In this document: piece by piece, positions 99 to 58,371 of the stretch
Layout of the letters: each line of letters starts with the position of its first letter
How positions within the stretch are numbered: position 1 is the first letter of the stretch
DNA from: Candidatus Fibrimonadaceae bacterium
Lineage (GTDB): Bacteria > Fibrobacterota > Fibrobacteria > Fibrobacterales > Fibrobacteraceae
Length of the DNA stretch: 64,000 bases
Direction of reading: 5' to 3'
NCBI GenBank assembly: GCA_031281345.1
Contig: JAITFN010000061.1
Coordinates: 35,345 to 99,344, forward strand
Made by a program: the position numbers and the translations under genes
Notes under the pieces: model-generated
What the model was told of the DNA's origin: nothing
The model's input: the letters and a program-made list of their open reading frames with translations, nothing else
The model's database searches: none

Positions 99-103
99 TT
101 GAA

Positions 104-2583: not shown

Positions 2584-2602
2584 TGTTATTCAATAAAATG
2601 CG

Positions 2603-4929: not shown

Positions 4930-4935
4930 ATATCC

Positions 4936-5919: not shown

Positions 5920-5968
5920 TTATAAAACCTATAAGATAAAAATTAGAAAATTTCTATTATTATCCCTA

Positions 5969-6103
5969 ATGCCTCAAAAATACTTCAACATAGTTGGTCC
6001 CTGCCACCCAAGCGAGCATTATATGCCTGCATTTCGTTATCTATGCTTCAAGGCAAAACAGAAAAGACTACCCTCTTATTGGAGATTGTGGTTTATCCAT
6101 TAA
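5969..6103 (+). pseudogene. N-terminal stub of an AAA-ATPase/PD-(D/E)XK-type gene (KYFNIVGPCHPSEHYM...)
   Basis: 44-aa plus-strand ORF opposite to operon; resembles the KYFNTAGPxxPExHYxLPP opening of this common gut-bacterial ATPase family, then degenerate. Confidence 0.45.
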
Positions 6104-7232: not shown

Positions 7233-7237
7233 TATTT

Positions 7238-8389
7238 TTACTCCTCAAACCAATAGGTATGTAATTTTAATGAATTTGAAAATTCTTCCATAATAAGATC
7301 ATATGTAAACTTTGCTTTGACCGTACATATAATTGCAATTTTAGCATCAAGTTCCTTACGTGGTTTCACAATTGATACACCACAAATATCGCCGCCATAT
7401 ACTTTGTTATCCCATATTTCTAATGGTGAATCAAAACCTATGCTTTTTATCATCTCAATATAATTCTCAGCATTTTTTTGACCGAAAAGAATGTATTTGC
7501 CTTCATATTGCTGCAACACATTAGGCAAATCAATAGTATGTTTCAACTTTTTAGCTTTTAGATAGTAATTTGCTTTAATCGCATAGTCAAATAATTCTAA
7601 TTTCGTTTTATCATAATATTTTTCAACAATATTGCGAATGCTATTCATAACATAGTCTTCTGGAGTAAAACACCAAGGTATCGCTAGTGAATAAAAAACT
7701 CCGTCAATATATTTACGTGTATCAGAAGTTACTTGAAACGCTCCTATATTTGGTAATATCCATTGAGAAATATATTCTTTGTTATTTGAAGAGATAGTAA
7801 TTTTTTCACCCGTAACTGAACTGAATAAAAATTTAGTAGCAAGAAAAATATTAGGAAAATTTGATAAATCCTTAAAATTAGTATTTACATACAAGGACAA
7901 ATCGTGCAATACAACAACTGTTCCATCTTCTAAAAAAGGCAATACGGATAAAAAATTCAAGGTTTCAACAGGATGTATGTGCGCTGTATCAATAATCACA
8001 AAATCAAACTTTTTATTGAAACTTTTAATCACTTCTGATGGATCTTTACCGGCAACCAAAGTCCATTGCGGATTATTTGCGTTTTCTAACAAGGCTGCAA
8101 AACCAATGGGTTTATCGTATCTAAGTGTTCTTTCTGCATAATCTATGGAAGTCAAGGTAGTTTCTTTTATATCCTTTATGGCTTGCAATATAAGCATTGA
8201 CCCCCCACCCTCCGCCACGCCTACCTCCAATATATTTTTTGGCTTGAAATGGCGAATTAACCCAAAAAGAAATCGTCTTTCTTCTGTACTCATTTGCATA
8301 AATTTATAAGTTTCTGGTGGTATGGCATTGAACATTTCGAAATCAATGTTTTCTGAAAAATCTGGCAACTCACTCAGTAGTTTATACAT
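7238..8389 (-). CDS. Class I SAM-dependent methyltransferase with C-terminal accessory-like module
   Basis: KNILEVGVAEGGGSMLILQAIKD...DFVIIDTAHIHPVETLNFLSVLPFLEDGTVVVLHDLS; start placed at MYKLLSEL, overlapping upstream stop. Confidence 0.75.
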   Translation of the reverse strand: MYKLLSELPDFSENIDFEMFNAIPPETYKFMQMSTEERRFLFGLIRHFKPKNILEVGVAEGGGSMLILQAIKDIKETTLTSIDYAERTLRYDKPIGFAALLENANNPQWTLVAGKDPSEVIKSFNKKFDFVIIDTAHIHPVETLNFLSVLPFLEDGTVVVLHDLSLYVNTNFKDLSNFPNIFLATKFLFSSVTGEKITISSNNKEYISQWILPNIGAFQVTSDTRKYIDGVFYSLAIPWCFTPEDYVMNSIRNIVEKYYDKTKLELFDYAIKANYYLKAKKLKHTIDLPNVLQQYEGKYILFGQKNAENYIEMIKSIGFDSPLEIWDNKVYGGDICGVSIVKPRKELDAKIAIICTVKAKFTYDLIMEEFSNSLKLHTYWFEE

Positions 8390-9704
8390 AGTTTTTCTCC
8401 GACAATAAAAGCCTATTCTCCCATTTATACACTTCCGCATAAGCATGTACAAATCCATTTTCATCATAACCGTATTCTATGAGTATTTTTTTCACAATAT
8501 CATACGCCCGTTTAGTTTCCATGCAAAGCACAACAAAATACTCTTCCATTTTTCCTCGCAACATCTCTGCCGGTTGAACCGTATATTCAAACACTTCTTT
8601 GCCATAATTGGCAGTCAAACCATCTACTACTATATCAGGATATACCTCACTTGATGCAAATATTGTCATTATAGAGGAAATATGCAGCCCTGCTCCCCAG
8701 AATGCAAGTTTGCGATTGCCAATAACCTGCTTAATATATCCAGCAGAATCAGCAAAAATATCCCGCCAGAATAGTTGTATGTATATGTTTGTTGGAAGCA
8801 GAGCTTCTGTTTTGGTAATTTTCTTTCGGCGTTCATATTCAGTTATGAGTTTTTTATCCAATTGGTCGTAAAATGGCGTTAATGCTTTGTATTTGTAGTA
8901 TAAACGCCAATGCTTGGAAATCATAAAAGTAGCATTCAAATGCCACGGTTTTTTTTGACCGATAAAGTGAATAATAACAGGATAATTATAAAAATCTACC
9001 CATTTTTTGAGACTTTTGCAATTTTTAGGGTAAAAAAAATGTCCCATATCTTCTAAATTAAATTTGGCGGATAAAAATTTCGCATATTTTTCTCCTTTTA
9101 TTAAATAGTTAATAACTTCTTGGTCGGCATACCAAGGTTCATTATTTTCAACATACTTGTTGAAAACAACGCTGATAATTTTAGGTAAATTATCAAGCGT
9201 ATATAATTCAGAAAATTTTTTCAAGTCCAACAATAATACACCTGCATTAAAATAATACCAATCATATTCTAAATCAAGAATTTTAGAACGCTTATATGAA
9301 TTGGTTACATCTGAAACCACTCCAGCAATTTTTCCTTCTAAATCTTCATTCCATAATTCTGCAATTTCACCATTTATAATCGTATCGCCATCAATATATA
9401 TTATCCTCTCTAGTTCAGGCAATATCGCTGGAAGGAAAAAACGATAATATGTTTCAACTGTTAAATGCTCAGGAATAGTAAGTGCTTTATCATCATATTC
9501 AAATCCATAATAATTCCACTTCCCATGTGGAAAACGTTCTGATAATGACGATAATTTTGCTTTATTTTCATCGGATAATCTATTAGAAATCACGTGAAAA
9601 TGTATTTCTGATTTAGTATTTGCTAGCATAGATGCCATAGACACGCAAGTAGGCTCTGCGTATCCATCGTCAAGGCAATATGCTATATGTATAGTACTAT
9701 TCAT
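8382..9704 (-). CDS. GT8 family glycosyltransferase with C-terminal accessory module
   Basis: IHIAYCLDDGYAEPTCVSMASML; IIYIDGDTIINGEIAELW; FNAGVLLLDLKKF. Confidence 0.9.
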   Translation of the reverse strand: MNSTIHIAYCLDDGYAEPTCVSMASMLANTKSEIHFHVISNRLSDENKAKLSSLSERFPHGKWNYYGFEYDDKALTIPEHLTVETYYRFFLPAILPELERIIYIDGDTIINGEIAELWNEDLEGKIAGVVSDVTNSYKRSKILDLEYDWYYFNAGVLLLDLKKFSELYTLDNLPKIISVVFNKYVENNEPWYADQEVINYLIKGEKYAKFLSAKFNLEDMGHFFYPKNCKSLKKWVDFYNYPVIIHFIGQKKPWHLNATFMISKHWRLYYKYKALTPFYDQLDKKLITEYERRKKITKTEALLPTNIYIQLFWRDIFADSAGYIKQVIGNRKLAFWGAGLHISSIMTIFASSEVYPDIVVDGLTANYGKEVFEYTVQPAEMLRGKMEEYFVVLCMETKRAYDIVKKILIEYGYDENGFVHAYAEVYKWENRLLLSEKNYV

Positions 9705-9859
9705 AATTCAAACAACTTTATTAAATTAACAACTTCAATATTATGGCACTCTTCTGACAATTTTTTACGTATATCTTCAAAAAATCCTTTGACAGACACA
9801 AGAATAATATCTGCTACGTTGTAAACAGGAACTATGATACTTACTTTTATATTCTGCAT
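9701..9859 (-). pseudogene. Collapsed GT2 gene: GT2 N-terminus joined to tail of accessory module
   Basis: 52-aa ORF MQNIKVSIIVPVYN|VADIILVSVKGFFEDIRKKLSEECHNIEVVNLIKLFEL, stop overlaps GT8 start (ATGA). Confidence 0.65.
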
Positions 9860-9884
9860 TTTGCTTTAAATATAGAAAATTATT

Positions 9885-10979
9885 TTAATTAGGCTTTTTA
9901 ATTTGAGAAACACTAAGCATAAGATTCGATTTGCCTACACACGAAAAACCTTCACGTACGACAATAAAACCTGCTTCCGAACATATTTCAAGCAATTCCC
10001 TGTGACTAAATTCATATATGTGATCATGGTAAGAAAATAGAATTTCGTCTCCTGGTGTTGGCATATCCCTCCAAGTACGGTGTGAGTAAAATTGCATATT
10101 ATGAGGACATGAAAGAAATAAAAAACCTTCCTCTTTAAGCAATCCTCTAATTTTTCGTAACGTAGGTACTGGATTATAAGAAAAATGCTCAATTACCTCT
10201 GTCATAACAATAAAATCATATTTTTTATCGCTCGGAACATCATTTGTTTCTATATTCATAACCATAACATTTTCGGCAACGTTGTATGCATAACTATTAT
10301 TTACATAAAGATCAATCCAGTCAATATTAACATCAATCAAATTTTTAACGCAGTCTGAGAAAAAACCTATACCGGGTCCGATATCTAACATTTTTACATT
10401 ATTCTTATTTTTATAAGTTTCATAAACCCATTTGTAAATTAAATGCCACCAACAAATTCCTGCCATATAATTAAAAAAATAGTCATTAATAATAGTTTTG
10501 TCGATAAGAATAGGGAAAGCGAACTTATTTATTGAACACATAAATGATTTTTTTAATGGTTCCATATCTCCCAATCTTTCAAAATCGGGTAGCCGTACAG
10601 CTTTAATTAAGCTAAAATCTTTTATTCCAGCATATAACATTTGACGAATAATTGCGGAACGAATAACATCGCGTATTTCAGGAACAATAATATAATATTG
10701 TTCATAGTTTGATATTACGTCCCACGTGCTTATCATTTCATAACCAAACAAATGTCCACCATTTATCTCATCATTGCTGTTGCATAATACCGCAGGCTTG
10801 ATACCAAACGTATTTAATGCTGCTAAACTATTGCCTAAAGCACCTATTCCGAATATCGCTATACCCCTATCAACCAATTTCTTGATTTCATCAATACTTC
10901 TGCTTGTTGAAATTAAGAAATAAGTTATACATAGGTTATTGGGGAAAACTTCGGTTTTTCCAATTTCTTCAACGTACAT
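9885..10979 (-). CDS. SAM-dependent methyltransferase with N-terminal accessory module
   Basis: VKMLDIGPGIGFFSDCVKNLI...YDFIVMTEVIEHFSYNPVPTLRKIRGLLKEEGFLFLSCPH; N-term RGIAIFGIGALGNSLAALNTF. Confidence 0.85.
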   Translation of the reverse strand: MYVEEIGKTEVFPNNLCITYFLISTSRSIDEIKKLVDRGIAIFGIGALGNSLAALNTFGIKPAVLCNSNDEINGGHLFGYEMISTWDVISNYEQYYIIVPEIRDVIRSAIIRQMLYAGIKDFSLIKAVRLPDFERLGDMEPLKKSFMCSINKFAFPILIDKTIINDYFFNYMAGICWWHLIYKWVYETYKNKNNVKMLDIGPGIGFFSDCVKNLIDVNIDWIDLYVNNSYAYNVAENVMVMNIETNDVPSDKKYDFIVMTEVIEHFSYNPVPTLRKIRGLLKEEGFLFLSCPHNMQFYSHRTWRDMPTPGDEILFSYHDHIYEFSHRELLEICSEAGFIVVREGFSCVGKSNLMLSVSQIKKPN

Positions 10980-10988
10980 TTTAACCTC

Positions 10989-12530
10989 CTATAAAATTGC
11001 CAAATATTCACAAAATTCAATTTTATTTGCTGGTATTTCCAAATCAAACCTAAGTTGCTTATATATTTGTTCCTCAAATACATTGGTTGCCATAATTATA
11101 ATTTTATCAAAATCCAAGGTATTAATTTTTTCAGGTGGTATCACTTGAATACCATCCAGTTCTTTGTGCCATTTATCGCCATTATTGTCAGAAAGTGCAA
11201 CGATTTCGCAATTATCTGGAAACTTGTAAAAACTCATTATTTTTTTATAAAGAAAACCTGTACCGAAAATAATAATCTTTTCTTTTTTTTGCAAAGGCTT
11301 CTCATAATTTGAAGAAAGAATATCATTTTTTATTCTTTCTGCGCACTTTCCATCCATATAAGGAATACATTTGCGCAATGCAGACTCTCTGGCAGGTTTT
11401 TTTTCATCAATGCCGCTATGAACCATATCCAAAAATTTTACTATATCTTTACTCCCCGTTCCCTTATAATAACTTTCCATCAAAGGAACCAAAGGAGGAA
11501 ATATCGGCTCTCTATAATCAATATTTTCAAGATATAGCACTGGAACGCCTACAACAGCTGACTCTATCATTAAAGCACTTCGATCTGTTATGATAACGTT
11601 TGCGTTCAATAAAGAAGGACGGTAATCATCTGCTCTATCAATATATGTATTTGGCGCAGAACCTATAATTTCTAGTAATTTTGCTGATTTTCTGTTGTTT
11701 GTTTCATTTACAGCATCATCTCCAAAACGCGGATGAGGCAAGAAAATGAAAAAAAGTTCTTTTTGATAATCCGCAAGTTTTTCAGCAAACTCAATATATT
11801 CTTCTAAATAAGGCGTTACTTGTTTTTCTACTCCTGAATCCAAAATAACTTTTGCAAAATGCGTATGCCAAACTACAATTTTTCTGCCTTTTATTCTTGA
11901 TTGCAAATCATTAGATAAAGTAAACCTATGTTTCTGAACTAGCGAATCAAAACGAGGCAAACCCAATGCTCGAACCGCTTGGGCATTTTCACAATATTTT
12001 TCATATTCTCGTTTAAATTCATCAGATAGTGTATAAATTCTCCAAGCATTTTTCAAAACAGGCTCACGAAAATGGTCGTGCCTCGCTGCTGCTGTATCTG
12101 CCAATTCAATTCCGTATGGTATATAAATCACTCGAATTTCCAATCTTTTTAAACGCAAACTATATAGATACGGCTTTCTATGCAATGTTTCATAAGGTGT
12201 TTGAATCACAGCAATATGTGGGTTGAATTTTCTAAAATTTGAATAATCAAACGGTATAAAATCCAAATTATTCTCTTGTAAAAAACTTTCGGCGGATTCT
12301 GTGTGCCGTGAAATATCAACGCCATCTTGTACAAGGTAAAGCTTTACATCAAATCGTGGATCATTTACACATTCAAGAAAAAAAGTTTCCCAAGATGGCC
12401 AAAATGATGCCATCTGAAATAAAAAAGCTATCCTTATTTTTTCTCTCTCTTGTAATTCTAGGTAACTCACAAATTCCCCGCTGGCTGTAAACTGCCGCTT
12501 TCTTCTCTTTTTTTTTCTGCCATTTTCCAC
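10989..12530 (-). CDS. CDP-glycerol glycerophosphotransferase-like protein with C-terminal accessory module
   Basis: RIYTLSDEFKREYEKYCENAQAVRALGLPRFDSL; VIITDRSALMIESAVVGVPVLYLEN; C-term KIIIFGTGFLYKKIMSFYKF. Confidence 0.7.
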   Translation of the reverse strand: MENGRKKKRRKRQFTASGEFVSYLELQEREKIRIAFLFQMASFWPSWETFFLECVNDPRFDVKLYLVQDGVDISRHTESAESFLQENNLDFIPFDYSNFRKFNPHIAVIQTPYETLHRKPYLYSLRLKRLEIRVIYIPYGIELADTAAARHDHFREPVLKNAWRIYTLSDEFKREYEKYCENAQAVRALGLPRFDSLVQKHRFTLSNDLQSRIKGRKIVVWHTHFAKVILDSGVEKQVTPYLEEYIEFAEKLADYQKELFFIFLPHPRFGDDAVNETNNRKSAKLLEIIGSAPNTYIDRADDYRPSLLNANVIITDRSALMIESAVVGVPVLYLENIDYREPIFPPLVPLMESYYKGTGSKDIVKFLDMVHSGIDEKKPARESALRKCIPYMDGKCAERIKNDILSSNYEKPLQKKEKIIIFGTGFLYKKIMSFYKFPDNCEIVALSDNNGDKWHKELDGIQVIPPEKINTLDFDKIIIMATNVFEEQIYKQLRFDLEIPANKIEFCEYLAIL

Positions 12531-13681
12531 ACAATTCCAAATTGCTCTGAATGTTCTATTTCCCTGTCTGTAATGCGCGGGTTGAATTTTTCCCCAATTT
12601 CTGAACGTTCAAGATTATATTTCGCATCATAATAATTGGGCATAAGCCTTGCCGCTTCTGCAAAATATGGCTTTGCAGCATCTACGTTTTGTTGCTGCAA
12701 CACACAGCAGCCTATATTGTTTGCAAATTCCGCACGGTAAGGCATTTGTTCTTGACCTAAACGAAGATATTTCTCCGCACTTTCAAAATTTCCTTGATAG
12801 CGATAATATCCCGTGCCTAAATAAAATGCTGCCCAAGGATTTTGATGTTTGTTTAATGCGTCTATAAAAAGTTTATTAGCTTTATCCGTATTGCCAAGAC
12901 GATAATACAATTTTCCTAAAACAATTTCTTTTTCATTTTCGCTGTAATTCGTGTGTTTAACTATATTTTCTAATTTTTCAAAGCTATAGCGAGCATATAT
13001 TCTTTGGTTATCTTGCTCAACCCGTTCACGGTCGCCAGAATAATTGTCCTCATGCACACGGTAACGCAAAAGCGGTTTATCTATGTGCTTGAAAGTTGCA
13101 CCAGCATCTATAAGATCAAACATATAAGCGTGATCACAACAAATAGGCGTTTCAAGTGAATAGCGTAATTTGTGTTTTTCAATAAAATCACGTTTCACCA
13201 ATACATTCATACCCAAGTTGGAAATGCCGTAACCTATCATCATAACCGCGAGCAAATCATTGTTGCGATGATAGTAATCCTCGTGCCCACGTATTCGTAC
13301 TGTATTCAGTTGTTCATCAACGAATTCTATATCGTTATATACACAATCAACATCTGCAAATTTCTCAATCATACGAACTTGTTCGTATAATTTTTCGCGG
13401 TAATAAATATCATCGTGATGGATAAAGGTAATGTATTTGCCATTTACATAATTGTCCAAAGCTTCATTGTAACCATTTACAGACCCTTTTGATTTTTGGC
13501 GAAAATATTTAATTCGCTCATCTTTATACGAAGCAACTATATTTGGAGTATTATCATCCGAGGCATCTACTACCACAAGTTCAAAATGCGGATAGGTTTG
13601 CGCTAATACGCTATCAATCGCAGCACGGATATAGTTTTCACCGTTGCGAACAGGAAGAATTACGGAAACTAAACTATTCAT
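12467..13681 (-). CDS. GT2 family glycosyltransferase with TPR-like C-terminus
   Basis: LVSVILPVRNGENYIRAAIDSVLAQTYPHFELVVVDASDDNT; C-term ALNKHQNPWAAFYLGTGYYRYQGNFESAEKYLRLGQ. Confidence 0.88.
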   Translation of the reverse strand: MNSLVSVILPVRNGENYIRAAIDSVLAQTYPHFELVVVDASDDNTPNIVASYKDERIKYFRQKSKGSVNGYNEALDNYVNGKYITFIHHDDIYYREKLYEQVRMIEKFADVDCVYNDIEFVDEQLNTVRIRGHEDYYHRNNDLLAVMMIGYGISNLGMNVLVKRDFIEKHKLRYSLETPICCDHAYMFDLIDAGATFKHIDKPLLRYRVHEDNYSGDRERVEQDNQRIYARYSFEKLENIVKHTNYSENEKEIVLGKLYYRLGNTDKANKLFIDALNKHQNPWAAFYLGTGYYRYQGNFESAEKYLRLGQEQMPYRAEFANNIGCCVLQQQNVDAAKPYFAEAARLMPNYYDAKYNLERSEIGEKFNPRITDREIEHSEQFGIVWKMAEKKREESGSLQPAGNL

Positions 13682-14859
13682 ATATTTTTCTCCGGTATGA
13701 CGTATAAAACTGTTTCACCTGCATAATTCCAATCGTGCCCATGATGGCGTAAGAAGAAACGGTACGCGGGATTCATTTCATGAAGAAGCAAGGGTATTTC
13801 ATAGACATCTTCAGGTTTATGATAAATACACACCGCCATCTTAGGTTTGCTATTTTTGATGGTTTCCATCATGCCAATTAACGCGTTTCGTTCATAACCT
13901 TCTATATCCAACTTAATAAACGATACTGAACTTTTGTTGCTTACAACATTATCCAAAGCTACCAATTTACCAAAATTATCAGAAAATACTCCACCTACTT
14001 TCTGCACATGCGTACTAGCCCCATTTCCGATCAACTTTATTTTTTCCTCTTGATTTGACAATCCATATTGGAATATAAATATTTTCTGAGAAAGATTTTC
14101 TGGCAATGTTTTAATATACGCATTCATTATGGCATAATTTTTTTCATCCACTTCAAATGAGTAAATGCTATTAAAATTACTTTTAGTTCGTGCTATAAAA
14201 TTCTGAATAGTATCTCCCGTATATCCACCGCCGTCTATAAAAGTTTCATTATCATTTAGTGTAATTATATCATCGGGGAAATATTGATCACCACTATAAA
14301 CCGTATCAAAAAACCTTTTGTTTTCGTATGGCAATATATTGTATTGAATACGGCGTATAAATATCTGCCTAGACAAGTCATCAGAAAATAATGAAAAAAC
14401 TTTTTCTAACCCTTCATAGTTTTCCGTATATAATTTGCCTGATTGTCTGAATCCATATAATCTGAATAAATCAAAAGAGTTTTGTAACTCTTGATTAATT
14501 ACATAGAATCCTTTCGCGGATAATTCAGCAATAATGTCATCTGCCTGAAATATACTTACAAATATATATGTATTCTTATCAAGCTCATGTGGGGGTACAC
14601 ATTTTATTCCACAATATTCCTTGCCATGTTTATTTTTATCATTATCAGACACACACCTTATTCTATTTCCTAATTTCTTCTTAAGAATCGGTAAAATCTC
14701 TGTTCCATAACTACCCATACCAAAAATGCAGATTTTATCATACAGCATTTCTAATTCAGCGAAATACTTATCAAAAGGAGATACCTCGTTGATAATTCCA
14801 ATACATTCTTTTAACTGTTCCATATATTCTTTTCCACTTTCTGATTTTCCGCCAACCAA
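13678..14859 (-). CDS. FkbM-type methyltransferase with N-terminal accessory module
   Basis: ETFIDGGGYTGDTIQNFIARTKSNFNSIYSFEVDEKNY; SFIKLDIEGYERNALIGM; N-term KICIFGMGSYGTEILPILKK. Confidence 0.88.
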   Translation of the reverse strand: MVGGKSESGKEYMEQLKECIGIINEVSPFDKYFAELEMLYDKICIFGMGSYGTEILPILKKKLGNRIRCVSDNDKNKHGKEYCGIKCVPPHELDKNTYIFVSIFQADDIIAELSAKGFYVINQELQNSFDLFRLYGFRQSGKLYTENYEGLEKVFSLFSDDLSRQIFIRRIQYNILPYENKRFFDTVYSGDQYFPDDIITLNDNETFIDGGGYTGDTIQNFIARTKSNFNSIYSFEVDEKNYAIMNAYIKTLPENLSQKIFIFQYGLSNQEEKIKLIGNGASTHVQKVGGVFSDNFGKLVALDNVVSNKSSVSFIKLDIEGYERNALIGMMETIKNSKPKMAVCIYHKPEDVYEIPLLLHEMNPAYRFFLRHHGHDWNYAGETVLYVIPEKNI

Positions 14860-15026
14860 TCATTTATATCCGCTTTTCCGCTTACCGTATGCCAGTTGTG
14901 AGCTACTCGCTTTAAAGTACAATAACTGCAAATTTTGGAAGGGGTTTTAAGATATTGTAAAACCACAAGTTCAAAATGCGGGTAAGTTTGCGCTAATACG
15001 CTATCAATCGCAGCACGGATATTCAT
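14811..15026 (-). pseudogene. Relic of a GT2 gene fused to an unrelated C-terminal tail
   Basis: MNIRAAIDSVLAQTYPHFELVVLQYLKTPSKICSYC...; 14962-15022 matches 13572-13632 at 59/61 nt. Confidence 0.6.
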
Positions 15027-15027
15027 A

Positions 15028-15969
15028 TTAATACAACTCCAATTCTTTCAAAAATGGTAAGTCACTGTTGTTAAAACCATTTGTTTGAACAGAGATAGGA
15101 ATCCGTTCTTTTTGACATTTTAAAACTAAGAGGTTTATATCATTTTTCTCACGGTCGCTTAATATCATTCGGCTGCGGACATCATGAGCTATAACAACTT
15201 TTCCAGGATTAACTTTTGAAATAATATCTATAAATCCATTGATGTTTTTGTCATCGTCATTTATTCTATCGAATAAAATATATTTCAAATGAATCATAGA
15301 ACCATTACTCGCGGAAGCGTATCTAAGTAAATTCCGCTTAACTTTCTCAAACAAATTTACACCTTTTAGCTTTGAAAAAGTCAACTCCGTTCCCGCATCC
15401 AACGATACTTCAAGCATTGTTTTCTTTTGCTTAATTAAATCAAATAGGTTCTCAGAAAATATAGAGCAATTTGTACCGATTCTGATACTCCAATCGTTTC
15501 TACGAAATATATTTATTATTTTATCCCTATCTTCTGAAACAAGCAATTCACCGCCATAATAATCTATTTTTGTTATCATTAAATGCGTTTCCATAAAATT
15601 CAAAACATCTAGTATAGACATATCTATTCCATTTATTTTACCGTTATGCTCTCCATAAACGCAGTAATTACATAGGAAATTACATCTCGTTGCGCCACGT
15701 AATCCAGAACCGAATCGTACGAGATCAATTTTTAGGGTTGGAGTACCAACCCCCTCTTTAAGAATAGCACAGCCATCACACCGAGTTTTTTCACCGACCG
15801 AGAGTTTATAATTCAAGGTTTCACATAAATCATAATACGCCTTAATACTATCTTCAATATTAGCCGTATGCTTTATCGTCGTACGATTTGGTTCGCAGCA
15901 AATAGATAACGAATTCTTATCAATAAACAAATATGTTCCGATTCTAGGACAAAACATACTATATTCCAC
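15028..15969 (-). CDS. Radical SAM protein
   Basis: CNFLCNYC motif (CX3CX2C), YYGGELLVSED; additional CDGC. Confidence 0.85.
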   Translation of the reverse strand: MEYSMFCPRIGTYLFIDKNSLSICCEPNRTTIKHTANIEDSIKAYYDLCETLNYKLSVGEKTRCDGCAILKEGVGTPTLKIDLVRFGSGLRGATRCNFLCNYCVYGEHNGKINGIDMSILDVLNFMETHLMITKIDYYGGELLVSEDRDKIINIFRRNDWSIRIGTNCSIFSENLFDLIKQKKTMLEVSLDAGTELTFSKLKGVNLFEKVKRNLLRYASASNGSMIHLKYILFDRINDDDKNINGFIDIISKVNPGKVVIAHDVRSRMILSDREKNDINLLVLKCQKERIPISVQTNGFNNSDLPFLKELELY

Positions 15970-17956
15970 CCGTCAAACTTTGGCTTTCCATAATAACCCG
16001 ATCCATATTCCAATACTCAAAATTCCCAAACCTGCCGTTTAAATACACGCCTTGATTGTTGAAATACTCACGAATATATTTCATATTTTCTTTATGCTGC
16101 AAATCGTATATCACATAAGCATAGGGAAAACGCTTCAACGTAAAAGCCTGTACTTCACTCTTTTCATGCACAAAACCTATTTTGAACAATCCATCTATAA
16201 ATTTCTCCTGCAATTCCTCATCAGAAAGAGCAGCCGTTTTGTCTTCATCGCGATATGTATATTCCATCATATAAGATGCTGTGCCGTCTTTATGATAGTT
16301 TTCTCCAAGAAAATCCACTTTGCTTATTCTATGGAAAATTACATCTGGGTTTGCAACCATAAATGCAAAATTATCACCAGCTCTATCCACAGAAACTGTT
16401 GCCATTGCTATAATAATATTGTTATGCCGCAAATTGCGCCCGCATTTTGCTACTTGCTCATCAATGCCACTATAAATTTCAGTTAAAACATTCACAGGAA
16501 TACACGATACCAGCAAATCGCCTTTGTATTCTGCATTTGCTGCCTTAACATACCAGCTATTATTTGATTTTTGCACCGAACTTACTTTATGCGATGTATG
16601 AATTTTTACTTTTCTATTTAATTTATTCATAAATGCGTTTATAAATGCCGCGGTAGCACCTGTTTTTGGATAGGAAAAATACAACTGATGAGTGTAGCCA
16701 TCTATAGTTTCACCAGCCGCACTTCGCAATATATCTTCATCGGGCGGACGTGGTATGCGTTCTACCATTTGCGTATCCATATACGCAGGGTTAAATTTCC
16801 ATATTTTTTCATTGTACGGGCAAAGATACAAATTTACAATGCCTTCGCCAAAAGTTTTCAAAAAAAATTGAAGCATATTATCGGCAGGATAGTCTCTATA
16901 TGGATTATGCAAAAAAGCATCTACGCATTTCGCACGTTCTTCGTCATTAAGTTTAGATAAATCATTTTCAAAAGGATATTGTATAAAACTCCCTTTATGG
17001 AGTATTCTGTTGGAACGCCGCAATTCATGCTTGTTATCTCCGAGCAAAGCCAACATAAAATTCAGAGTTTCTTTGTCTTTTGAAAAAAAGATGTGCGGAC
17101 CTATATCAACTGTGATTCCATTATGCTGAAAACTGCGGCACAAGCCCCCTAGCTCATTTTCTTTTTCCAATATATCTATAGAAGCAATGCCGGGTTTTTC
17201 TTGCAGAAAGTAAGCGAGTGATATTCCAGCAAGCCCACCGCCTAGTATAATAATTTTTCTTCCTCTATTTTGCACATCTTTTTCCACGGCAGCAAAACGC
17301 TCTGGGGTTCCCATATCTTTAACATATTCCGGAGAATTATAGGCAAATACTTTGCCTCCAGGTATCACTCTCATAATCAAATCATGGTCTAAGTCACATT
17401 TTGTAGCTTCGCCAACAGGAAGCGCATCGCCATTAAATATGTATAATCCGGCATTGGCAAGATTGGGAAGGTTGTCGCCGCGTTGCTTGTCATTTTTGGA
17501 TTTCCATGAGGTCACACGGTCTTCCGCATCGGTCACAAGAATATCGCTATCTTGCGGATGGCTGTTTGGGTGCGCAAATAATGTTATGGATGCTTGTTTT
17601 TCTCTGTGAAAACGGATAAATTTTTCTATATCTATGTCAAAATACACATCACCCAAGAGTATAAGCGTATCTTCTCGTGGCAACAATGCCAAAGCACCGC
17701 CCGTGCCTAGAGGTTCGTTTTCTACAATATAATCTATATGTACGCCAAAAGCCTTGCCATCGCCAAAATGATTGCGGATAACATCGGCTTTATAACCCAC
17801 AGTCAATGTAATTTGATTAATGCCTTGCAAAGCTAAAACCTCAATATGATGTTGCAGCAGAGGTTTGCCGACAATGGGAAACATGGGTTTGGGCAAGTCA
17901 GGATAAATTTCTCCTATGCGAGTTCCCTTGCCACCTGCTAAAATAGCCGCCCTCAT
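15959..17956 (-). CDS. Fusion: HddC-like sugar-1-P nucleotidyltransferase + UDP-galactopyranose-mutase/protoporphyrinogen-oxidase-like flavoprotein
   Basis: N-term MRAAILAGGKGTRIGEIYPDLPKPMFPIVGKPLLQHHIE; mid KIIILGGGLAGISLAYFLQEK...ENELGGLCRSFQHNGITVDIGPHIFFSKD. Confidence 0.85.
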   Translation of the reverse strand: MRAAILAGGKGTRIGEIYPDLPKPMFPIVGKPLLQHHIEVLALQGINQITLTVGYKADVIRNHFGDGKAFGVHIDYIVENEPLGTGGALALLPREDTLILLGDVYFDIDIEKFIRFHREKQASITLFAHPNSHPQDSDILVTDAEDRVTSWKSKNDKQRGDNLPNLANAGLYIFNGDALPVGEATKCDLDHDLIMRVIPGGKVFAYNSPEYVKDMGTPERFAAVEKDVQNRGRKIIILGGGLAGISLAYFLQEKPGIASIDILEKENELGGLCRSFQHNGITVDIGPHIFFSKDKETLNFMLALLGDNKHELRRSNRILHKGSFIQYPFENDLSKLNDEERAKCVDAFLHNPYRDYPADNMLQFFLKTFGEGIVNLYLCPYNEKIWKFNPAYMDTQMVERIPRPPDEDILRSAAGETIDGYTHQLYFSYPKTGATAAFINAFMNKLNRKVKIHTSHKVSSVQKSNNSWYVKAANAEYKGDLLVSCIPVNVLTEIYSGIDEQVAKCGRNLRHNNIIIAMATVSVDRAGDNFAFMVANPDVIFHRISKVDFLGENYHKDGTASYMMEYTYRDEDKTAALSDEELQEKFIDGLFKIGFVHEKSEVQAFTLKRFPYAYVIYDLQHKENMKYIREYFNNQGVYLNGRFGNFEYWNMDRVIMESQSLTGGI

Positions 17957-49279: not shown

Positions 49280-49501
49280 ATGACCGTTGCAGCAATGTTG
49301 ATGAAAGAAATAGAAACTCTACCAGAGGAGTCTGCAAAAGCGGCTCTTGATTTTGTTTTGTTTTTGAGAAATAAAGCGAACTTAAATATATATACTAATT
49401 TTGAGCAAGTAGCAACGGAGAAGTTTCCAGGTATGGATAAACCTGTTCATTTAGGATTTGATTTGAAGAAAATTTCAAGAGAAGAACTTTATGAAAGATA
49501 A
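49280..49501 (+). CDS. VapB/DUF2281-like antitoxin
   Basis: Small ORF overlapping a PIN-domain gene; IETLPEESAKAALDFVLFLRNK. Confidence 0.7.
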   Translation: MTVAAMLMKEIETLPEESAKAALDFVLFLRNKANLNIYTNFEQVATEKFPGMDKPVHLGFDLKKISREELYER

Positions 49502-49907
49502 AATTTTTGTAGATACGAATGTTTTTATTTATGCTTATTCCGATGACGATATACCAAAACATAAAACAGCAAAAACTCTTCTGCAAAATGATTTAGCAGA
49601 AGATTTTGTTATTGTCAGTACTCAAATACTTAATGAATTTTATTCGGTGATGTCAAAAAGCAAATCATCTCACCAAGAGATAGCTAGTTATGTGAAAGAA
49701 ATTGCAAAACAGACTTATGTGAAATCAGTTACTATAGAAAGCATTGAACTATGTTTAAGAATTAAAGAGAAATATCGTTTTTCTTGGTGGGATTCTTTGG
49801 TTTTAACTTCTGCATTAGAAAATGAATGTTCAGTTTTGTATTCAGAAGATTTACAGCACGGACAGATTATAGAATCTTCGTTAAAAATAATTAATCCATT
49901 TACTTAA
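49491..49907 (+). CDS. PIN-domain (VapC-like) toxin
   Basis: DKIFVDTNVFIYAYSDDDIPKHKTA; FSWWDSLVLTSALENECSVLYSEDLQHGQ. Confidence 0.9.
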   Translation: MKDKIFVDTNVFIYAYSDDDIPKHKTAKTLLQNDLAEDFVIVSTQILNEFYSVMSKSKSSHQEIASYVKEIAKQTYVKSVTIESIELCLRIKEKYRFSWWDSLVLTSALENECSVLYSEDLQHGQIIESSLKIINPFT

Positions 49908-50359: not shown

Positions 50360-52273
50360 TCATTTGTGAGTGAGTTTGAAAGATTTTACTTCAGAAATAA
50401 AATTTATGGAATTAATTTTTTTATCCAAAGAATTAAATTCTTGCTTTAATTCATATAATTCTGTCCCAGGAGTAATAACTTCGTCTTTATAATTCGTATA
50501 ATACCTAATGAGTTTAACAATACGTGGGTTATTAATTTTTAAGTCATTAAAATTTGCTTTATGAATTATATCTAAAGCTTCTATTTTATCGTCACCTTCT
50601 AAAGAATCAAACTCTATTTCCCATTTTTTTGTCGAAATTTTATATTCCTTTGTTTCTAACCATTCAAAAAAACTTCTGTATAAAATAAATGTTTCTGGCA
50701 TTTCGAGAATTTTTTTAAATTTAGCCAAATTTTCTCCAAAAGCTCTTCTAAAAAATGACTCACCCCGACCAATTTTCCCTTTAGTGCTATTAAGCACAGC
50801 CTGTACAGCTCTTATATATTTTTTGCACCAATGTTTACCTATGAAATCTCTATTATGAAAATACTTCGGATTTTCTATAGGATGATATTTCATTGGAAAA
50901 GAATAAATTGTAATCTTTAAATCTTCGCACAACTTAATGTTTAACTCCATTCGATTATATAAATCTTCTGGTTTGTCATTAAAATTGTATAACAAATAAT
51001 TTGATAAATTATTTATTTCATATTTCTTTGCTAAATGAATCGCTTTTTCATAAATATTTTTTTGACCCCAATGATCAAAAGCAATACGAAGAGGACGAAT
51101 ATTAATTTCTGCTATTTTCTTGATTTTTTCTTCCGTGGCAAGTCTGGCATCTAGACCTTGGTTAAAATCTACGTAACGAGTTATATTCGATTGCTTAAAT
51201 TGGTTTTTATAAATAGGGTTTACTATCTTATGAAATTTTAAAATAGAACTTTTGGTTGCAGTTTGTTCATATAATAAATTTAATTTTTTTCTTTGTAAAT
51301 AAAAATTGCCTTGCTCTTGTTCATTTAATTTTTCAGATATTTGTTCATATATTTTTAAGATTTTTTTTATGTAAGCCCTATTGTTCCAATTATTTCGTAA
51401 ATTTTTTATAGCAATATTGTATTCATTTATAGATTTATATTTTGTATTTTTTTCAAAACCACACTTTTTTATTTCATCTATAATTTCATCAAACTTATTT
51501 GAAGCAAAAACGTTATCATCCATTAAAAGCAAATTTCTCTTTTTTCCGAATTTTATACTTGCTTTATCTAAAGTTTCTTTTAATGGAATATAATTGCAAT
51601 ATTCATATTCTAGTTTAGGTACGGCACAAAAAGCACATTTATTAACGCACCCCCTTGTTGTATAGGCAAAGTAAGCATTATTAGCTGGATATTTATAATC
51701 TATTTCTTCTAGAATAGAATAATCTAATGGTAAATTATCTACAACATCCCACAAGCCAATATATGGATCAATTTTCGTTTCTTCTTTTATATATTGAGGT
51801 AAAATTGTTGCTGCAATTCCACCGACTTTAATTTCACCTTTTTTACAAAAATGTTTGGCGAAATTTATAGTATCAATGGTTTTTTTCCAATAGAAAGTAA
51901 ATAACGTGGTAATGCAAATTATGTCAAATTGTGGAAAATCTTTATTAATATATCGGTTCCTTAAACCAGATAGAGAATTAAATTCATTGAAATCAGGTAT
52001 TAATTTTAATGAAGCATATCTTCCCGTCTTTATATATTCAGTTAGTTTTGAAAAATGTTTAGCCCATAATAATCTATTAGTATTTTTTTTTCTACTTAAA
52101 ATTTCTTCGCATAATAAATCGGCAGCAAATGACGATAAATCGCCTTTAAAAAAACGTACATCGTATGTATTTCTACGATATTTTCTTTCGCGATAATATG
52201 TAGCAATTTTCATTAAACCCATTGGTGGGTATTTATTGTTGTAATTAGGTTCCAACAATAGAACTTTTTTCAT
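50360..52273 (-). CDS. Radical SAM protein with large internal insertion
   Basis: KVLLLEPNYNNKYPPMGLMKIATYYRE; TTRGCVNKCAFCAVP; LLLMDDNVFAS...VDFNQGLDARLATEEK. Confidence 0.85.
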   Translation of the reverse strand: MKKVLLLEPNYNNKYPPMGLMKIATYYRERKYRRNTYDVRFFKGDLSSFAADLLCEEILSRKKNTNRLLWAKHFSKLTEYIKTGRYASLKLIPDFNEFNSLSGLRNRYINKDFPQFDIICITTLFTFYWKKTIDTINFAKHFCKKGEIKVGGIAATILPQYIKEETKIDPYIGLWDVVDNLPLDYSILEEIDYKYPANNAYFAYTTRGCVNKCAFCAVPKLEYEYCNYIPLKETLDKASIKFGKKRNLLLMDDNVFASNKFDEIIDEIKKCGFEKNTKYKSINEYNIAIKNLRNNWNNRAYIKKILKIYEQISEKLNEQEQGNFYLQRKKLNLLYEQTATKSSILKFHKIVNPIYKNQFKQSNITRYVDFNQGLDARLATEEKIKKIAEINIRPLRIAFDHWGQKNIYEKAIHLAKKYEINNLSNYLLYNFNDKPEDLYNRMELNIKLCEDLKITIYSFPMKYHPIENPKYFHNRDFIGKHWCKKYIRAVQAVLNSTKGKIGRGESFFRRAFGENLAKFKKILEMPETFILYRSFFEWLETKEYKISTKKWEIEFDSLEGDDKIEALDIIHKANFNDLKINNPRIVKLIRYYTNYKDEVITPGTELYELKQEFNSLDKKINSINFISEVKSFKLTHK

Positions 52274-52392
52274 TTAAAGACCTCTTTTATTTTTTGAATA
52301 ATCTTTGCAGTATCATAAGACTCGCCATTCGTTATTTTTCCGAAAAGGCTTGACGTTTTTAAATAAGAATAATTTTGTACTACTATACTCAT
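52270..52392 (-). CDS. 40-aa small ORF translationally coupled to the radical SAM gene
   Basis: MSIVVQNYSYLKTSSLFGKITNGESYDTAKIIQKIKEVFK*; stop overlaps radical SAM ATG; TTTCTATATT ends 8 nt before its ATG. Confidence 0.4.
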   Translation of the reverse strand: MSIVVQNYSYLKTSSLFGKITNGESYDTAKIIQKIKEVFK

Positions 52393-52563
52393 CGGGCTGT
52401 AATATAGAAATTTTAACTATTATTACCTACATTTATCTTTACCAGCTTAGTATTTGGTTATGCTTACCCCTAGGGGGTAGACTCAGGGAACATATTTTCT
52501 ATATTACACTAGCAGTCTGTTGAATACCGATTGTATTATTTTTATTCTTTGAGGAAAGTGGCT

Positions 52564-54216
52564 ATGAAATTAAGCAAATTTGATATAGGTGCAGAGGTTA
52601 TTTCTATTATTACAAAAGGAATATACCCTAACCCTCAAGATGCATTAAGAGAATACATTCAAAATAGCGTTGATGCTCACGCTAAAAAAATACAAGTAAA
52701 AATTCGTCAAGAGTCTATTGTTGTTAAAGATGACGGGAAAGGTATGAATCATGATATACTGAGAAATGCTATTCGCATAGGAGTTTCTGATAAAAATCCA
52801 GCAAAAAATGTTGGATTTATGGGTATTGGCATTTATAGTTCTTTTCATTTATGTGAAAAATTAACAATATATAGTAAAGGAACAGAAAATATTCCTAATA
52901 AGTTAGAAATAAATTTTGGCAATATGAAATCTATATTGAATACACAGAAAGAAAAAAGATTAAATAACAAAATAAAAACTGAAGAACTTATAGATTTACA
53001 AACTTTATTAGAAAATTGTATATCACTAACTGGAAATGGAGCTTTATCCAACGATGAATATCCTAATCAAGGTACCATAATTGAACTTACAGGAATAGAA
53101 CCTGAATTTTATACAGCTCTATCGGATTTTGATACTGTAGCAAATTATTTAAGAAATATTGTTCCCCTTCATTTTGATGATAAAAATTTTAAATATTCTA
53201 GCAAGATAGAAACTGAAATTGCCAAAATATGTAATGAAAAAAAACAAAAATTTGAGCTAATCAATCTATCTCTTCAGGTAAATTCTAAAGTAGAAGATTT
53301 ATATAGACCTTACAAAGATAGCGACTTTAGCTCAGAAATTGAACCTCAAGAACCAGTATTTTTTCCAATTGAAAATGAAGAAACATTTTTTGGAGTTGCC
53401 TGGGGTTGCCTTAATTCGGTCAGAAAAAGATTAGATACAAAAAATTTGAGAGGATTTATCATAAAAAAACAAGGATTTTCAATAGGTAACAGGGAAGAAT
53501 TGGTAAAATATTTTCCACGTAAAAGTACTTTCTTCGATAGATACAGCGGAGAAATTATAATTATAAACCATAAAATACTACCTAATGCCTCTCGTAATGG
53601 CATAGAATATTCTCCATTACGTTCATCTTTTTATGAAGCATTAACAGAGGTAGCTGCTAAGTTTGACGAAAAAGGAAAGGAATATCAAGAATATAATAAA
53701 GGCGATGAAGAATTCGATAACCTTTTTAATTCATTTAATGACGTATTCGGAGCTTATAGTGAATACGAAGAAGATGCTGAGAAACTTGTAGGGACAATAG
53801 TTACACTTAAAAATATGTATGATGAGATTAACGGTAGAATAAAGAGGCGTGGATTTAAAAAAGAAACCGAAAAACTAGCAAAAAAATTACTTGAAAGTAT
53901 AAAAAAATTTGAAATAACTATACAAAATAGAATAACAACTGTTAACGAAAAGAAAAAAAATAAAAAACCAAATATACAAAAAAAAGATATTGCTAAAAAA
54001 ATTTCTAACATAAAATTAAATAATTCCTTGAGTAGCATAAAAAATTACGAAAATTTATATGATTTACTTATTGATATAGATGTAAAAATTGAAGATGATT
54101 TTGCACATATAATTTATTTGATCGATGAAATGTTTATTCAAAAAGTAGCTCAGTCTAAGGCTGAGTATTATCAATTATTACAACAATTTAAAGAAAGAGT
54201 ACAAGAGGACGAATAA
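52564..54216 (+). CDS. GHKL (HSP90/MORC/MutL-like) ATPase
   Basis: YPNPQDALREYIQNSVDAHAKKIQVKI; VKDDGKGMNHDIL; NVGFMGIGIYSSFHLCEKL; SD GAGGAAAG precedes M at 52564. Confidence 0.85.
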   Translation: MKLSKFDIGAEVISIITKGIYPNPQDALREYIQNSVDAHAKKIQVKIRQESIVVKDDGKGMNHDILRNAIRIGVSDKNPAKNVGFMGIGIYSSFHLCEKLTIYSKGTENIPNKLEINFGNMKSILNTQKEKRLNNKIKTEELIDLQTLLENCISLTGNGALSNDEYPNQGTIIELTGIEPEFYTALSDFDTVANYLRNIVPLHFDDKNFKYSSKIETEIAKICNEKKQKFELINLSLQVNSKVEDLYRPYKDSDFSSEIEPQEPVFFPIENEETFFGVAWGCLNSVRKRLDTKNLRGFIIKKQGFSIGNREELVKYFPRKSTFFDRYSGEIIIINHKILPNASRNGIEYSPLRSSFYEALTEVAAKFDEKGKEYQEYNKGDEEFDNLFNSFNDVFGAYSEYEEDAEKLVGTIVTLKNMYDEINGRIKRRGFKKETEKLAKKLLESIKKFEITIQNRITTVNEKKKNKKPNIQKKDIAKKISNIKLNNSLSSIKNYENLYDLLIDIDVKIEDDFAHIIYLIDEMFIQKVAQSKAEYYQLLQQFKERVQEDE

Positions 54217-55227
54217 ATGAAGCAATCATTTAATACAGAAAATAAAAATTTTATTAGGGAAAATTGGAATAAACCAATCATCAAGTTTCTATCAAAACGA
54301 ATAGGAGAAAAATTAATTTATATAGGGCTTCCTTCGCCAGAAGCTGGTGATGTTAAGCAATGGCTTGAACATATTAAATCCATTATAGCTTTTCAATGTA
54401 GAGATTACGGTAAAGCATCAAATCCAAATCAAAATAGAGACCAAATTATAAAATTGGATAATTTTTTAAGAGAATTAGAAAGACAGGAAAAAATAGAAGA
54501 CTATACTATTTACGATGGTTATTTAGAAGAGGTTGTATTAAAAGAATATGATAATTCTCCAAATGAGATAAAATTTAGTCAAGATAAATTTATAACTCTA
54601 TACAATTTGGATTTCTGTAATGATATTGCTTCTCCTATAGAATATACAGATAAAAACGGTAACATTAAAAAAGCATATAAATTTAATGCTATTCAGAAAT
54701 TATTAGGTGTACAAAAATTATTAAGTGAAATTTCTAATAAATTTATTTTTTATTTGACTGTTCATTGTAGTTACAAAGATAAAGAATTACAAGATTTCAT
54801 AAATACAACGGAGAAATCTATTAAAGATTATTTAAAACGGTATTCGTCTTTAAAAGGAGATGATAAGAATGCTGAAATTGTACGTTTATTTGTATGCCAT
54901 AATATTAAAAAATATTTTAGTGCAAATGATTTTTCATATCATATTCTCCCAATAATCAAATATCAAGGCATTGGTAAAACAACTTTGTTACATTTTTCTG
55001 TGATAGGAATTCATCCTGAACCTACAGCAGAAGGAGCTGCTGATTTCCAGCCTTTGGATGAAATTATAAAGAGACCATTCATAACTATAGAAAATGAGCA
55101 ATTTAAATATGAAACTATATTAGAGGAAGAAAATATAGATCCAACTGAAAGAATAGATCCAATAAAGTTATTTGAAAAATCACAAACTTTTAAAAAAATG
55201 TGGAATATAAAAAAATCAAATAAATGA
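54217..55227 (+). CDS. Hypothetical protein, partner of GHKL ATPase
   Basis: Abuts ATPase stop directly; IYIGLPSPEAGDVKQWLEHIKSIIAFQCRDYG...TLYNLDFCND (weak resemblance to a Rossmann-type fold). Confidence 0.6.
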   Translation: MKQSFNTENKNFIRENWNKPIIKFLSKRIGEKLIYIGLPSPEAGDVKQWLEHIKSIIAFQCRDYGKASNPNQNRDQIIKLDNFLRELERQEKIEDYTIYDGYLEEVVLKEYDNSPNEIKFSQDKFITLYNLDFCNDIASPIEYTDKNGNIKKAYKFNAIQKLLGVQKLLSEISNKFIFYLTVHCSYKDKELQDFINTTEKSIKDYLKRYSSLKGDDKNAEIVRLFVCHNIKKYFSANDFSYHILPIIKYQGIGKTTLLHFSVIGIHPEPTAEGAADFQPLDEIIKRPFITIENEQFKYETILEEENIDPTERIDPIKLFEKSQTFKKMWNIKKSNK

Positions 55228-55291
55228 ATTATATTTTTTGTCTTCTGCTAATGCAGAGTACGATCAAACGAAATTTTTCTACCTTACCCCT

Positions 55292-58200
55292 ATGCCTTCT
55301 TCAACCAACACAGCCGACCCTCTCAACGAATACCTCGGCTATCTCTCTGCCCACCCAAACGGCGAAGAAATACAATACCGTACTTCCTTTGAAAATTTTT
55401 TCAATAAAAGCGTTCCCTCTCACTTGGCAAAAAGAAACATAACCGCAATTCAAGAAGACAGGCACAGCGGTATAGATGTTGAAGGCACGCCGGATTTTTT
55501 TGTGTATGAGGATTACGGTTCTCTTTTTAAAAGATTGGTAGGTTTTATAGAGTGCAAAAAGCCTGCGTATAAACTTGAAAAGCTCATTGAAAGCGAGCAA
55601 ATCAAAAATATGCCAAAACCTGTGAGAACATAATAATAACCAATTATCACCGCTTTATTCTTTTGCAAAAAGGCAAGGTGGAACACGATGTTGAACTTTC
55701 AAACGAGCAAAACAGAATTCAAAAGTTTGAAAATTTGCTCCGCGATTTTTATAGCTACGATTATCCCTATATAAAAACGAAAAAATCTTTGGTTTCCGTG
55801 CTTGCTACCCAAAGCTTTTACTATTCCGTTGCTTTGCGTGAATTTATGGCGGACAAGGAAAATGCGGCGGCGAATTTTTATGTGAAGTTCAACGGTCTTT
55901 TTGGTGAGTATCAAAAATCCATAAGCTACCACTATGAATTGGAGGATTTTTGCGACATTTATTCCCAATCGCTGGTTTATGGGCTTATGCTTTCCTGCAT
56001 TGACACCGGGAAAAAACTTGATGAGAAGGAATTGGATTATCTGCGCGGTATTCCAAGCGAATATAAATTGCTTCACGAATTTTTACAGCAAGCCTATGAA
56101 AACCGCGATTTGCCTATGCCTATAAAAATAGCCCTCATAAACATTGGGAAAAATATAAACCTGATAAGCATTGAAGACATACAAAAGGAATTTGCCAAAA
56201 CGAACAATGGCAAGCAAAATATAGTTGTGTATCTCTATGAGGATTTTCTGCAAGAGTATGATAATTTGCGGAAAACCGAGAAGCGAAAAGAAGGCGGAGT
56301 TTATTACACTCCAAGCGAAGTGGCGAATTTCATCGCTCGCAGCGTGAATGGGATTATTAAAACAAAATTTTCTATGCACCACGGTTATCTTTCTCGCAAT
56401 GTGAAAATTTTAGATTTCGCTTGCGGAACAGGAACTTTTTTGCATTCTATTTTTGAGCAAATTATTGGAAGTGATATGGACGATGTGGATAAGGAAATTG
56501 TGAGAAACAAAATTGCGAATGACATTTACGGTTTTGAATTGCTCTTTACGCCATACATAATAGCACATACTATTTTGACACGATTTTTGAAAGAGAAAGG
56601 CATAAAAATAGACGAGCGTTTAGGAATTTATCTAACAAATACGCTTGATATAAGCCAGCATTCAATAAGCAGCTTGTTGCCTTCCTTGAAAAGAGAATAT
56701 GAGAAAGCAATGGAGATAAAAGACCGTGAGCAGATTTTGGCAATTGTGGGAAATCCGCCTTATTTCAACGGCAAGAGCCAAGCGGAAAAAGGGAAGATTG
56801 ATAGTGAATTAAATGAATACAAGAAAGACCTAGATGAAAAGAAAATAAATCTTGACGATTTGTATATAAAGTTTATTCGTTTCGCTGAATGGAAAATTGA
56901 AAGATACGGAGAAGGCGTTGTCGGGATTATTACGAACAATAGCTATCTTGATGGAGTGACGCATAGAAAAATGCGAGAACATTTATATAACACGTTTGAC
57001 GAAATTTACATTGTGAATTTGCACGGCAATGCGCGCAAAGGCGAGATAGATAAAAATATTTTTGACATTATGGTTGGCGTGTCCATTGTGTTTTTTGTGA
57101 AATTGAAGAAGCCCACAAAAAAATGTATTCGGTATTTTTCCACATTGGATAATGATATGATTTCCCGTCAGGAGAAATTATCATTTTTGGAGAATGCAAA
57201 TTTTGAGAAAATAAAATGGAAAAAATTAAATCCAATCAAGCCATATTATTGGTTCGTTGATAAAGATTTGTCCTTGCAAGATGAATACAGCAAATTTTTG
57301 AAAATCACGGATATTTTTGAACATTACAGCAGCGGAATAGAAACAAAAAATGACAAATTTATTTTACATTATTCAAAAAATGATTTGAAAAATGTTGTAA
57401 AAAATCTTATTTCACTTTCCAATGATGAAATTTCAAAAAAATATAATGTTTCAGATAGCAGAGATTGGACTATAGAAAAAGCGAGAGACGATGTGAGAGA
57501 AAATTTTAATCTGCAAAGTGTTTTATACCGCCCATTTGATTATCGCTACACTTCTTTAAGTAAAACTTCAAAGAACTTTATCGCTTATCCTCGTTATGAA
57601 ACAGCCAAGCATTTTGAAAAACAAAACATAGGCTTATGTTTTACTCGTCAAGTATTAGGCGACAACTGGAAAAATATCTTTATATCCGAAAATATAATAG
57701 AGAGTTGTGCAGTTTCGTTAAGATCTCGTGAAAAAACTTATATAGCACCTCTCTACTTATATGAGAAAAGGCAAGGGATTGAAGGGCTTGGAGGAGGCGA
57801 GAGATTTCCAAATTTCACGGACGAATTCAAAAAATTTTTGCGAACTTTTGATTTCAAGCCCAGCCCCGAAAAAATCTTGGCATACATCTACGCCGTATTG
57901 CATTCGCCAGACTATCGCAAAAAATACATAGAATTCCTAAAAACGGATTTCCCCGCTGTGCCATTTACCAAAGATAAAGAAACATTTGAAAAACTCGCAA
58001 AACTTGGGCAAAAGTTAATAGACTTGCATTTACTCAAAAACTTACCAAGCGACAAAGAAATCAAAGCAAAAAACATCCCACAAACGAATTTCACAATAGA
58101 AAGCATCCACCACCACAATGATGAACTTTTCTTGCATACCACTCAAAAACAAAACATCTCATTTTCTGGAGTAACATCCAAAATCTACGACTTTGAAATA

Positions 58201-58371
58201 GGTTCGTACAAACCCATAGAGAAATGGCTCAAATACCGCATAAAAGATGAAGTGTCGCTATGTGCCGAAGATTTGAAGCATTTGAAGGAAATGATTGTTG
58301 CGATAAAGGGGACTTTGGAGGTTATGGGGGAGATTGATTTCACCTTTAAGCGGTTTGACATAAATCACTAA
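55292..58371 (+). pseudogene. Type ISP/IIG restriction-modification enzyme split by a single-base frameshift
   Basis: Nuclease part GIDVEGTPDFFVYEDYGSLFKRLVGFIECKKPAYKLEKLIESEQI; MTase part FACGTGTFLHSIFEQ, AIVGNPPYFNG; adding one A to 55604-55608 restores KKYAKTCENIIITNYHRFILLQKGK. Confidence 0.85.

Follow-up and report, generated by a model that had tools for sequence, protein, structure and literature searches.

The 64,000-nucleotide stretch analyzed here (the window; contig JAITFN010000061.1, positions 35,345 to 99,344) lies at a contig end in the draft genome of a gut Candidatus Fibrimonadaceae bacterium (G000). It carries three adjacent genes encoding a radical S-adenosylmethionine (rSAM) enzyme, an HSP90-like GHKL ATPase, and a 336-residue protein to which no family is assigned. 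With a probability of roughly 0.55, this trio arrived by horizontal transfer and is a divergent, pared-back version of an uncharacterized mobile rSAM/HSP90-like ATPase system, whose role would most likely lie in defense or DNA conflict. The assignment to the gene set is strong; the function is one that we infer. The core of the wider system is a GHKL ATPase together with an rSAM enzyme, usually encoded as NurA-HerA-GHKL-rSAM.

A search with an alignment of five rSAM sequences (A1) returned 470 relatives in the genome collection, and the best 80 loci were examined, with their neighbors counted by a six-frame recount. The complete NurA-HerA-GHKL-rSAM set is present in one order at 59 of these 80 loci; 14 more are cut by contig ends, leaving seven true deviants. 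Four deviants have neither NurA nor HerA (L066, L068, L091, and L020 from a congener), one has no recognizable GHKL gene (L059), and two, both from Synergistota (L047 and L074), carry rSAM alone among ordinary genes, and their draft genomes yielded neither a partner GHKL nor a NurA at any other place. A GHKL gene lies near rSAM at 75 of the 78 testable loci, and among the best 80 no NurA gene occurs near a locus that is devoid of HerA. The hosts include Bacillota, Synergistota, Planctomycetota, Chlorobi, Cloacimonadota, Bacteroidota, and one archaeon. The first gene of the operon is NurA-like, with conserved FLDGSR, KDGSL, and RWxxHxYP motifs; NurA (7f6d) is the best PDB match to its profile (A7), at 0.006, and a homologue in a Marinitoga virus is annotated as an exonuclease and sits beside HerA. 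The second gene is HerA-like with Walker motifs, and the third encodes the HSP90-like ATPase. One record filed as 'Bacteriophage sp.' (L006; MT836743.1) has the same four genes followed by a Schlafen/AlbA gene, and appears to be a contig of bacterial origin, not the genome of a phage.

The rSAM enzyme of the window (637 residues; 50360 to 52273, minus strand) is assigned from Pfam, an AlphaFold2 model, Foldseek, and clade placement. It matches Pfam Radical_SAM (E = 6e-5), and its CxxxCxxC cluster motif is intact at C209, C213, and C216. It is 50–58% identical to many rSAMs of NurA-HerA operons and, together with its congener counterpart, is nested within the NurA-HerA-GHKL-rSAM clade of the tree with a support of 96. 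The model (predicted local distance difference test (pLDDT) 92; predicted template modeling score (pTM) 0.89) comprises an N-terminal Rossmann domain resembling a B12 domain, the rSAM barrel, a helical insert, and a helical C-terminal part. Foldseek places MgmA at the top (5.7e-9), followed by a model of MtaB and by MiaB, AprD4, and RimO, and the nearest named models are B12-type rSAMs. The five enzymes found by Foldseek share the overall rSAM and N-terminal Rossmann fold with the window enzyme at 7–13% sequence identity, and the latter has long extra helical parts and family-specific motifs (DFNQGxDARL, RIAFDH, and SFPMKYHP, invariant among 46 aligned sequences). The extra segments, approximately residues 52–115 and 280–364 relative to the 540-residue plasmid forms, correspond to the insertion of ~120 residues mentioned in the preliminary description of this locus; they are real, but common to the long-form family rather than peculiar to this gene. 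The predicted fold and the invariant motifs would suit a modification enzyme that acts on a defined substrate, which they do not name.

The GHKL ATPase (52564 to 54216, plus strand) matches Pfam HATPase_c_3 (3.9e-19) with its N, G1, and G2 boxes intact. From the alignment with the congener, translation probably starts at ATG 52564, giving 550 residues; an alternative TTG at 52531 would give 561. A profile built only from the GHKLs of NurA-HerA operons (A5) finds the protein at 3.6e-24 in the genome search, and the two align over profile positions 5–495 with ~100 bits, compared with 250–310 bits for the plasmid GHKLs and 48 bits for an unrelated GHKL. In the tree it occupies a very long branch. 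Judged by these comparisons, it is a predicted divergent relative of the GHKL family that partners rSAM. The protein is distantly MutL/HSP90-like, although it is not MutL itself (36.6 bits against the MutL equivalog, whose cut-off is 180, in the ATPase domain only), and a separate HtpG-like gene is found elsewhere in the source genome (G000:C12). The rSAM and GHKL genes diverge from a 290-bp gap (52274 to 52563), previously suggested to be a shared regulatory region. This divergent arrangement is genuine and is kept in the congener, but the gap itself shows no sequence conservation from one genome to the other, and no common operator is visible in it.

The third gene (54217 to 55227, plus strand; 54217 hereafter) abuts the ATPase gene, beginning one base past its stop codon. 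It was found only in the source genome and in one congener, 2 of 168 Fibrobacterota genomes, and there was no homologue beyond the congener in viral contigs or in 29 rSAM-bearing genomes. A weak match in L118 proved to be an unrelated ATPase-type gene. The possibility of a hidden NurA was rejected, as the profile comparison gave a probability of 1%, and so was membership in NF047698, where the match (3e-6) falls far under the family cut-off; a family search across the phylum returned nothing, but it is uninformative, its controls having been silent as well. Neither this protein nor the GHKL ATPase matched any toxin family. The structure model of 54217, built from two sequences, is poor (pLDDT 50), and the class I methyltransferases among its top fold matches have E values of 0.02 or worse. 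A methyltransferase-like fold is possible, as a weak lead.

Eleven congeners were searched, and only one (G006, loci L020 and L100) has all three genes. This genome, from a 'Candidatus Fibrimonadales' bacterium, is the closest named relative with the cassette; its proteins are 71–76% identical to those of the window, and its layout is the same, with rSAM divergent from the GHKL-54217 pair. A simple estimate of the ratio of nonsynonymous to synonymous substitutions (dN/dS) between the two genomes gives 0.11 for rSAM, 0.16 for GHKL, and 0.11 for 54217, indicating that all three genes are under purifying selection. The preliminary description was right about the three genes, which lie as intact open reading frames where it placed them and whose shared layout exceeds chance. 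Its idea of a conserved ATPase-54217 pair to which rSAM is an add-on was not supported: outside the genus rSAM and GHKL are the core and co-occur almost throughout, whereas 54217 was found in only two genomes.

The distribution of the cassette in Fibrobacterota is patchy. The rSAM gene is intact in 2 of 121 genomes, and decayed copies exist: a C-terminal fragment in G112 (L101:8232-8528; a 98-residue frame with 58% identity over 69 residues) adjoins a DUF1016-like nuclease gene, and a second, in G018 (G018:C75:6026-6166), covers 46 residues. In the window the trio lies within a block of low guanine-plus-cytosine (GC) content, 26–35% across 49.3–58.4 kb compared with ~40% on either side. In G008, the nearest relative compared, the NADH-dehydrogenase-like gene of the left flank (99% identical) is followed by different genes, and the genes of the right-hand flank lie on a separate contig, the block being absent. 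The block is clearly accessory in the genus, though gene order there is rearranged to such a degree that no clean empty site is obtained.

With respect to the wider gene set, the window has an rSAM of the family and, adjacent to it, a divergent GHKL of the partner family, but no upstream NurA and HerA. No NurA was found in the whole genomes of either the source organism or G006 (84–88% complete), and no HerA-sized gene in the neighborhood of the trio. Since NurA and HerA are missing, the cassette is a relative rather than a full member of the NurA-HerA-GHKL-rSAM set. The simplest reading of the sequences is that an ancestral operon shed NurA and HerA and took up 54217, and that its GHKL either diverged rapidly or was replaced.

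Elsewhere, the rSAM-GHKL core keeps other company. Alphaproteobacterial plasmids carry a DGQHR gene (DGQHR, 2.8e-39; DpdB, 1e-16) followed by the same rSAM and GHKL, and on three plasmids, conjugative and large (L003, L004, and L005), a PIN_8 protein accompanied by a GHKL of its own lies beside this set. Several loci of Lachnospiraceae and related bacteria instead have a 260-residue protein and a second GHKL after rSAM; the former occurs beside rSAM in L069, L072, L073, L077, L086, L090, L091, and L097, mostly with the second GHKL. On visual inspection its motifs (FIDVLGF...SDSL...RGGIAKG) resemble those of a cyclase, which no sequence match in the PDB bore out. In viral contig L107 the 260-residue protein and a second GHKL are likewise paired, upstream of a distant rSAM, and in four further viral contigs (L108, L109, L111, and L115) SNF2-type helicase and ParB-like genes lie upstream of rSAM-GHKL, with DGQHR in L115. 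AbiEi- or AbiEii-like toxin–antitoxin genes are directly upstream of NurA in L076, L077, L096, and L098 and beside the operon also in L031, L048, and L073. Among 130 neighbors, AbiEi was counted seven times and AbiEii three times, with neither among the families listed for 130 control genes. The genes form a transferable unit, and the company of NurA-HerA, DGQHR, PIN, and AbiE genes, together with the carriage on plasmids, supports the earlier suggestion of a defense-like or nucleic-acid setting.

The combination had not been recognized in the preliminary description, and the full texts searched, largely without subscription papers and wholly without preprints, yielded no published description of an rSAM/NurA-HerA/GHKL set. 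PADLOC has no model for it, and Pfam and NCBIfam scans name no such system. The PADLOC comparison proposed earlier gave no match to the window rSAM at E values up to 1, and for the GHKL only matches confined to the ATPase domain. The GHKL shares its N-terminal domain with MzaB of the MZA system (6.7e-9; 33.9 bits where the cut-off is 850) and with the BbrUII/HgiDII restriction ATPases (BbrUII, 5.5e-11; 42 bits against 550), in both cases over the ATPase domain alone and far below the cut-off, and the other genes of these systems are absent. Likewise, the rSAM matches no known defense rSAM model and so is not placed with prokaryotic viperins. The nearest characterized relatives of the HerA-NurA half are HerA-DUF4297 (PMC11291478) and the HerA-NurA pair (PMC12977600). 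HerA-DUF4297 and HerA-SIR2 are two-gene anti-phage complexes of a HerA ATPase with a nuclease or effector (PMC11291478). The related loci also encode HerA with a nuclease, but theirs is NurA, and the described complexes have no rSAM or GHKL; none of the window genes has a PADLOC or Pfam match to these systems. The NurA-HerA pair of archaea and Deinococcus shares the NurA and Walker motifs of the related loci, where, however, it belongs to a longer operon that also includes GHKL and rSAM; this pair is missing from the window.

How such a system might work can be outlined from its parts. The rSAM enzyme, with its fold akin to B12-domain enzymes, MiaB, and MgmA, would use radical chemistry to modify a nucleic acid, a nucleotide, or a partner protein. 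GHKL ATPases such as HSP90 and MutL form dimers when they bind ATP and work as clamps or switches, and the GHKL here could be an ATP-gated clamp or switch coupling the modification to an effector. The effector would differ by locus: the NurA-HerA translocase-nuclease at most, the PIN protein with its own GHKL on plasmids, the 260-residue protein with a second GHKL in some Firmicutes, and the 336-residue protein in the window. A GHKL is recurrently paired with HerA-NurA, PIN, the 260-residue protein, and 54217, which suggests a switch whose effectors can be exchanged. Mobility, patchiness, decay, and AbiE neighbors point to a conflict or defense role, most likely against phages or plasmids or between mobile elements. 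We would entertain only tentatively the bolder proposal of a novel class of immunity or DNA modification in prokaryotes, in which an HSP90-like ATPase gates radical chemistry, the effectors are interchangeable, and the window has swapped HerA-NurA for the 336-residue protein.

Several points weigh against a defensive ATPase-rSAM system of this kind. The two Synergistota loci with rSAM alone indicate that rSAM can persist without GHKL, and the window GHKL, given its long branch, may be a separate recruit. AbiE alone stands out in the second neighbor sample, mostly from one Lachnospiraceae lineage; a general enrichment of defense genes around the loci was not established, because the counts are of families, not proteins, and random controls hold defense genes as well; the control of the first sample held a Septu system. 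Naming 54217 as effector is a guess, and the defense role is a predicted one.

A rather unlikely account is that of a DNA or RNA modification system, in which rSAM marks host nucleic acid, driven by GHKL, and a separable nuclease attacks unmarked DNA, the window keeping the modifying half and a methyltransferase-like helper. The plasmid loci lend this some weight, as a DGQHR protein of the DpdB/DndB kind adjoins rSAM there, as does the closeness of the rSAM fold to the modifying enzymes MgmA, MiaB, MtaB, and RimO. The window, however, has no DGQHR protein, and no dpd or dnd modification enzyme accompanies the set at the loci read, so that the cassette does not belong to Dpd or Dnd; nor is a substrate assigned to rSAM. 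The helper would depend on the weak methyltransferase-like matches of 54217, which come from the pLDDT-50 model. DNA repair or recombination, with NurA-HerA resecting ends, a MutL-like GHKL, and rSAM handling a lesion, is improbable, and would make the window cassette a degenerate accessory copy. Although NurA-HerA is an archaeal end-resection pair (PMC12977600), the patchiness, the carriage on plasmids and prophages, the decayed copies, and the AbiE neighbors misfit a core repair function, and the window form, like every examined locus without HerA, has no NurA nearby. Radical SAM repair enzymes do exist, spore photoproduct lyase being one, and the distant likeness of the GHKL to MutL agrees with such a role. 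It is more improbable still that the genes are a toxin–antitoxin-like or selfish mobile-element cassette of no anti-phage benefit. VapBC adjoins the trio in the window, AbiE the operon elsewhere, and conjugative plasmids carry the rSAM-GHKL set, as such a cassette might. Yet four enzymes whose order is fixed and whose active sites are strongly conserved suggest a costly, catalytic system rather than a simple poison–antidote pair, and toxin families had no match in 54217 or GHKL.

The remaining genes of the low-GC block are neighbors of the trio rather than core. At its left edge is a VapBC-like toxin–antitoxin pair (49280 to 49907, plus strand), composed of a VapC-like PIN protein (7e-13) and a weakly VapB-like partner. 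Downstream of 54217 lies a type ISP (IIG-like) restriction–modification gene (55238 to 58371, plus strand; Type_ISP_C, 4.7e-69), which had been considered part of the unit. It is frameshifted near 55600–55630 and thereby split into 55238–55633 and 55663–58371, the N-terminal frame ending at three stop codons near 55.6 kb and the remainder continuing in another frame; the gene may be a pseudogene, or the break may stem from faulty assembly. The G006 trio is flanked by a different, non-orthologous, and broken restriction–modification gene and shares no toxin–antitoxin genes with the window. Because the flanks differ, these genes are excluded from the unit. A further low-GC stretch (about 30–36%) with strong negative GC skew occupies positions 1–16000 of the window.

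Analysis of the window uncovered a large gene set, tight in its order, that has no counterpart among PADLOC models. If the system is defensive, a HerA-driven nuclease would be combined in it with radical SAM chemistry and an HSP90-type switch, and the variant from Fibrobacterota would reveal which two parts are its irreducible core.

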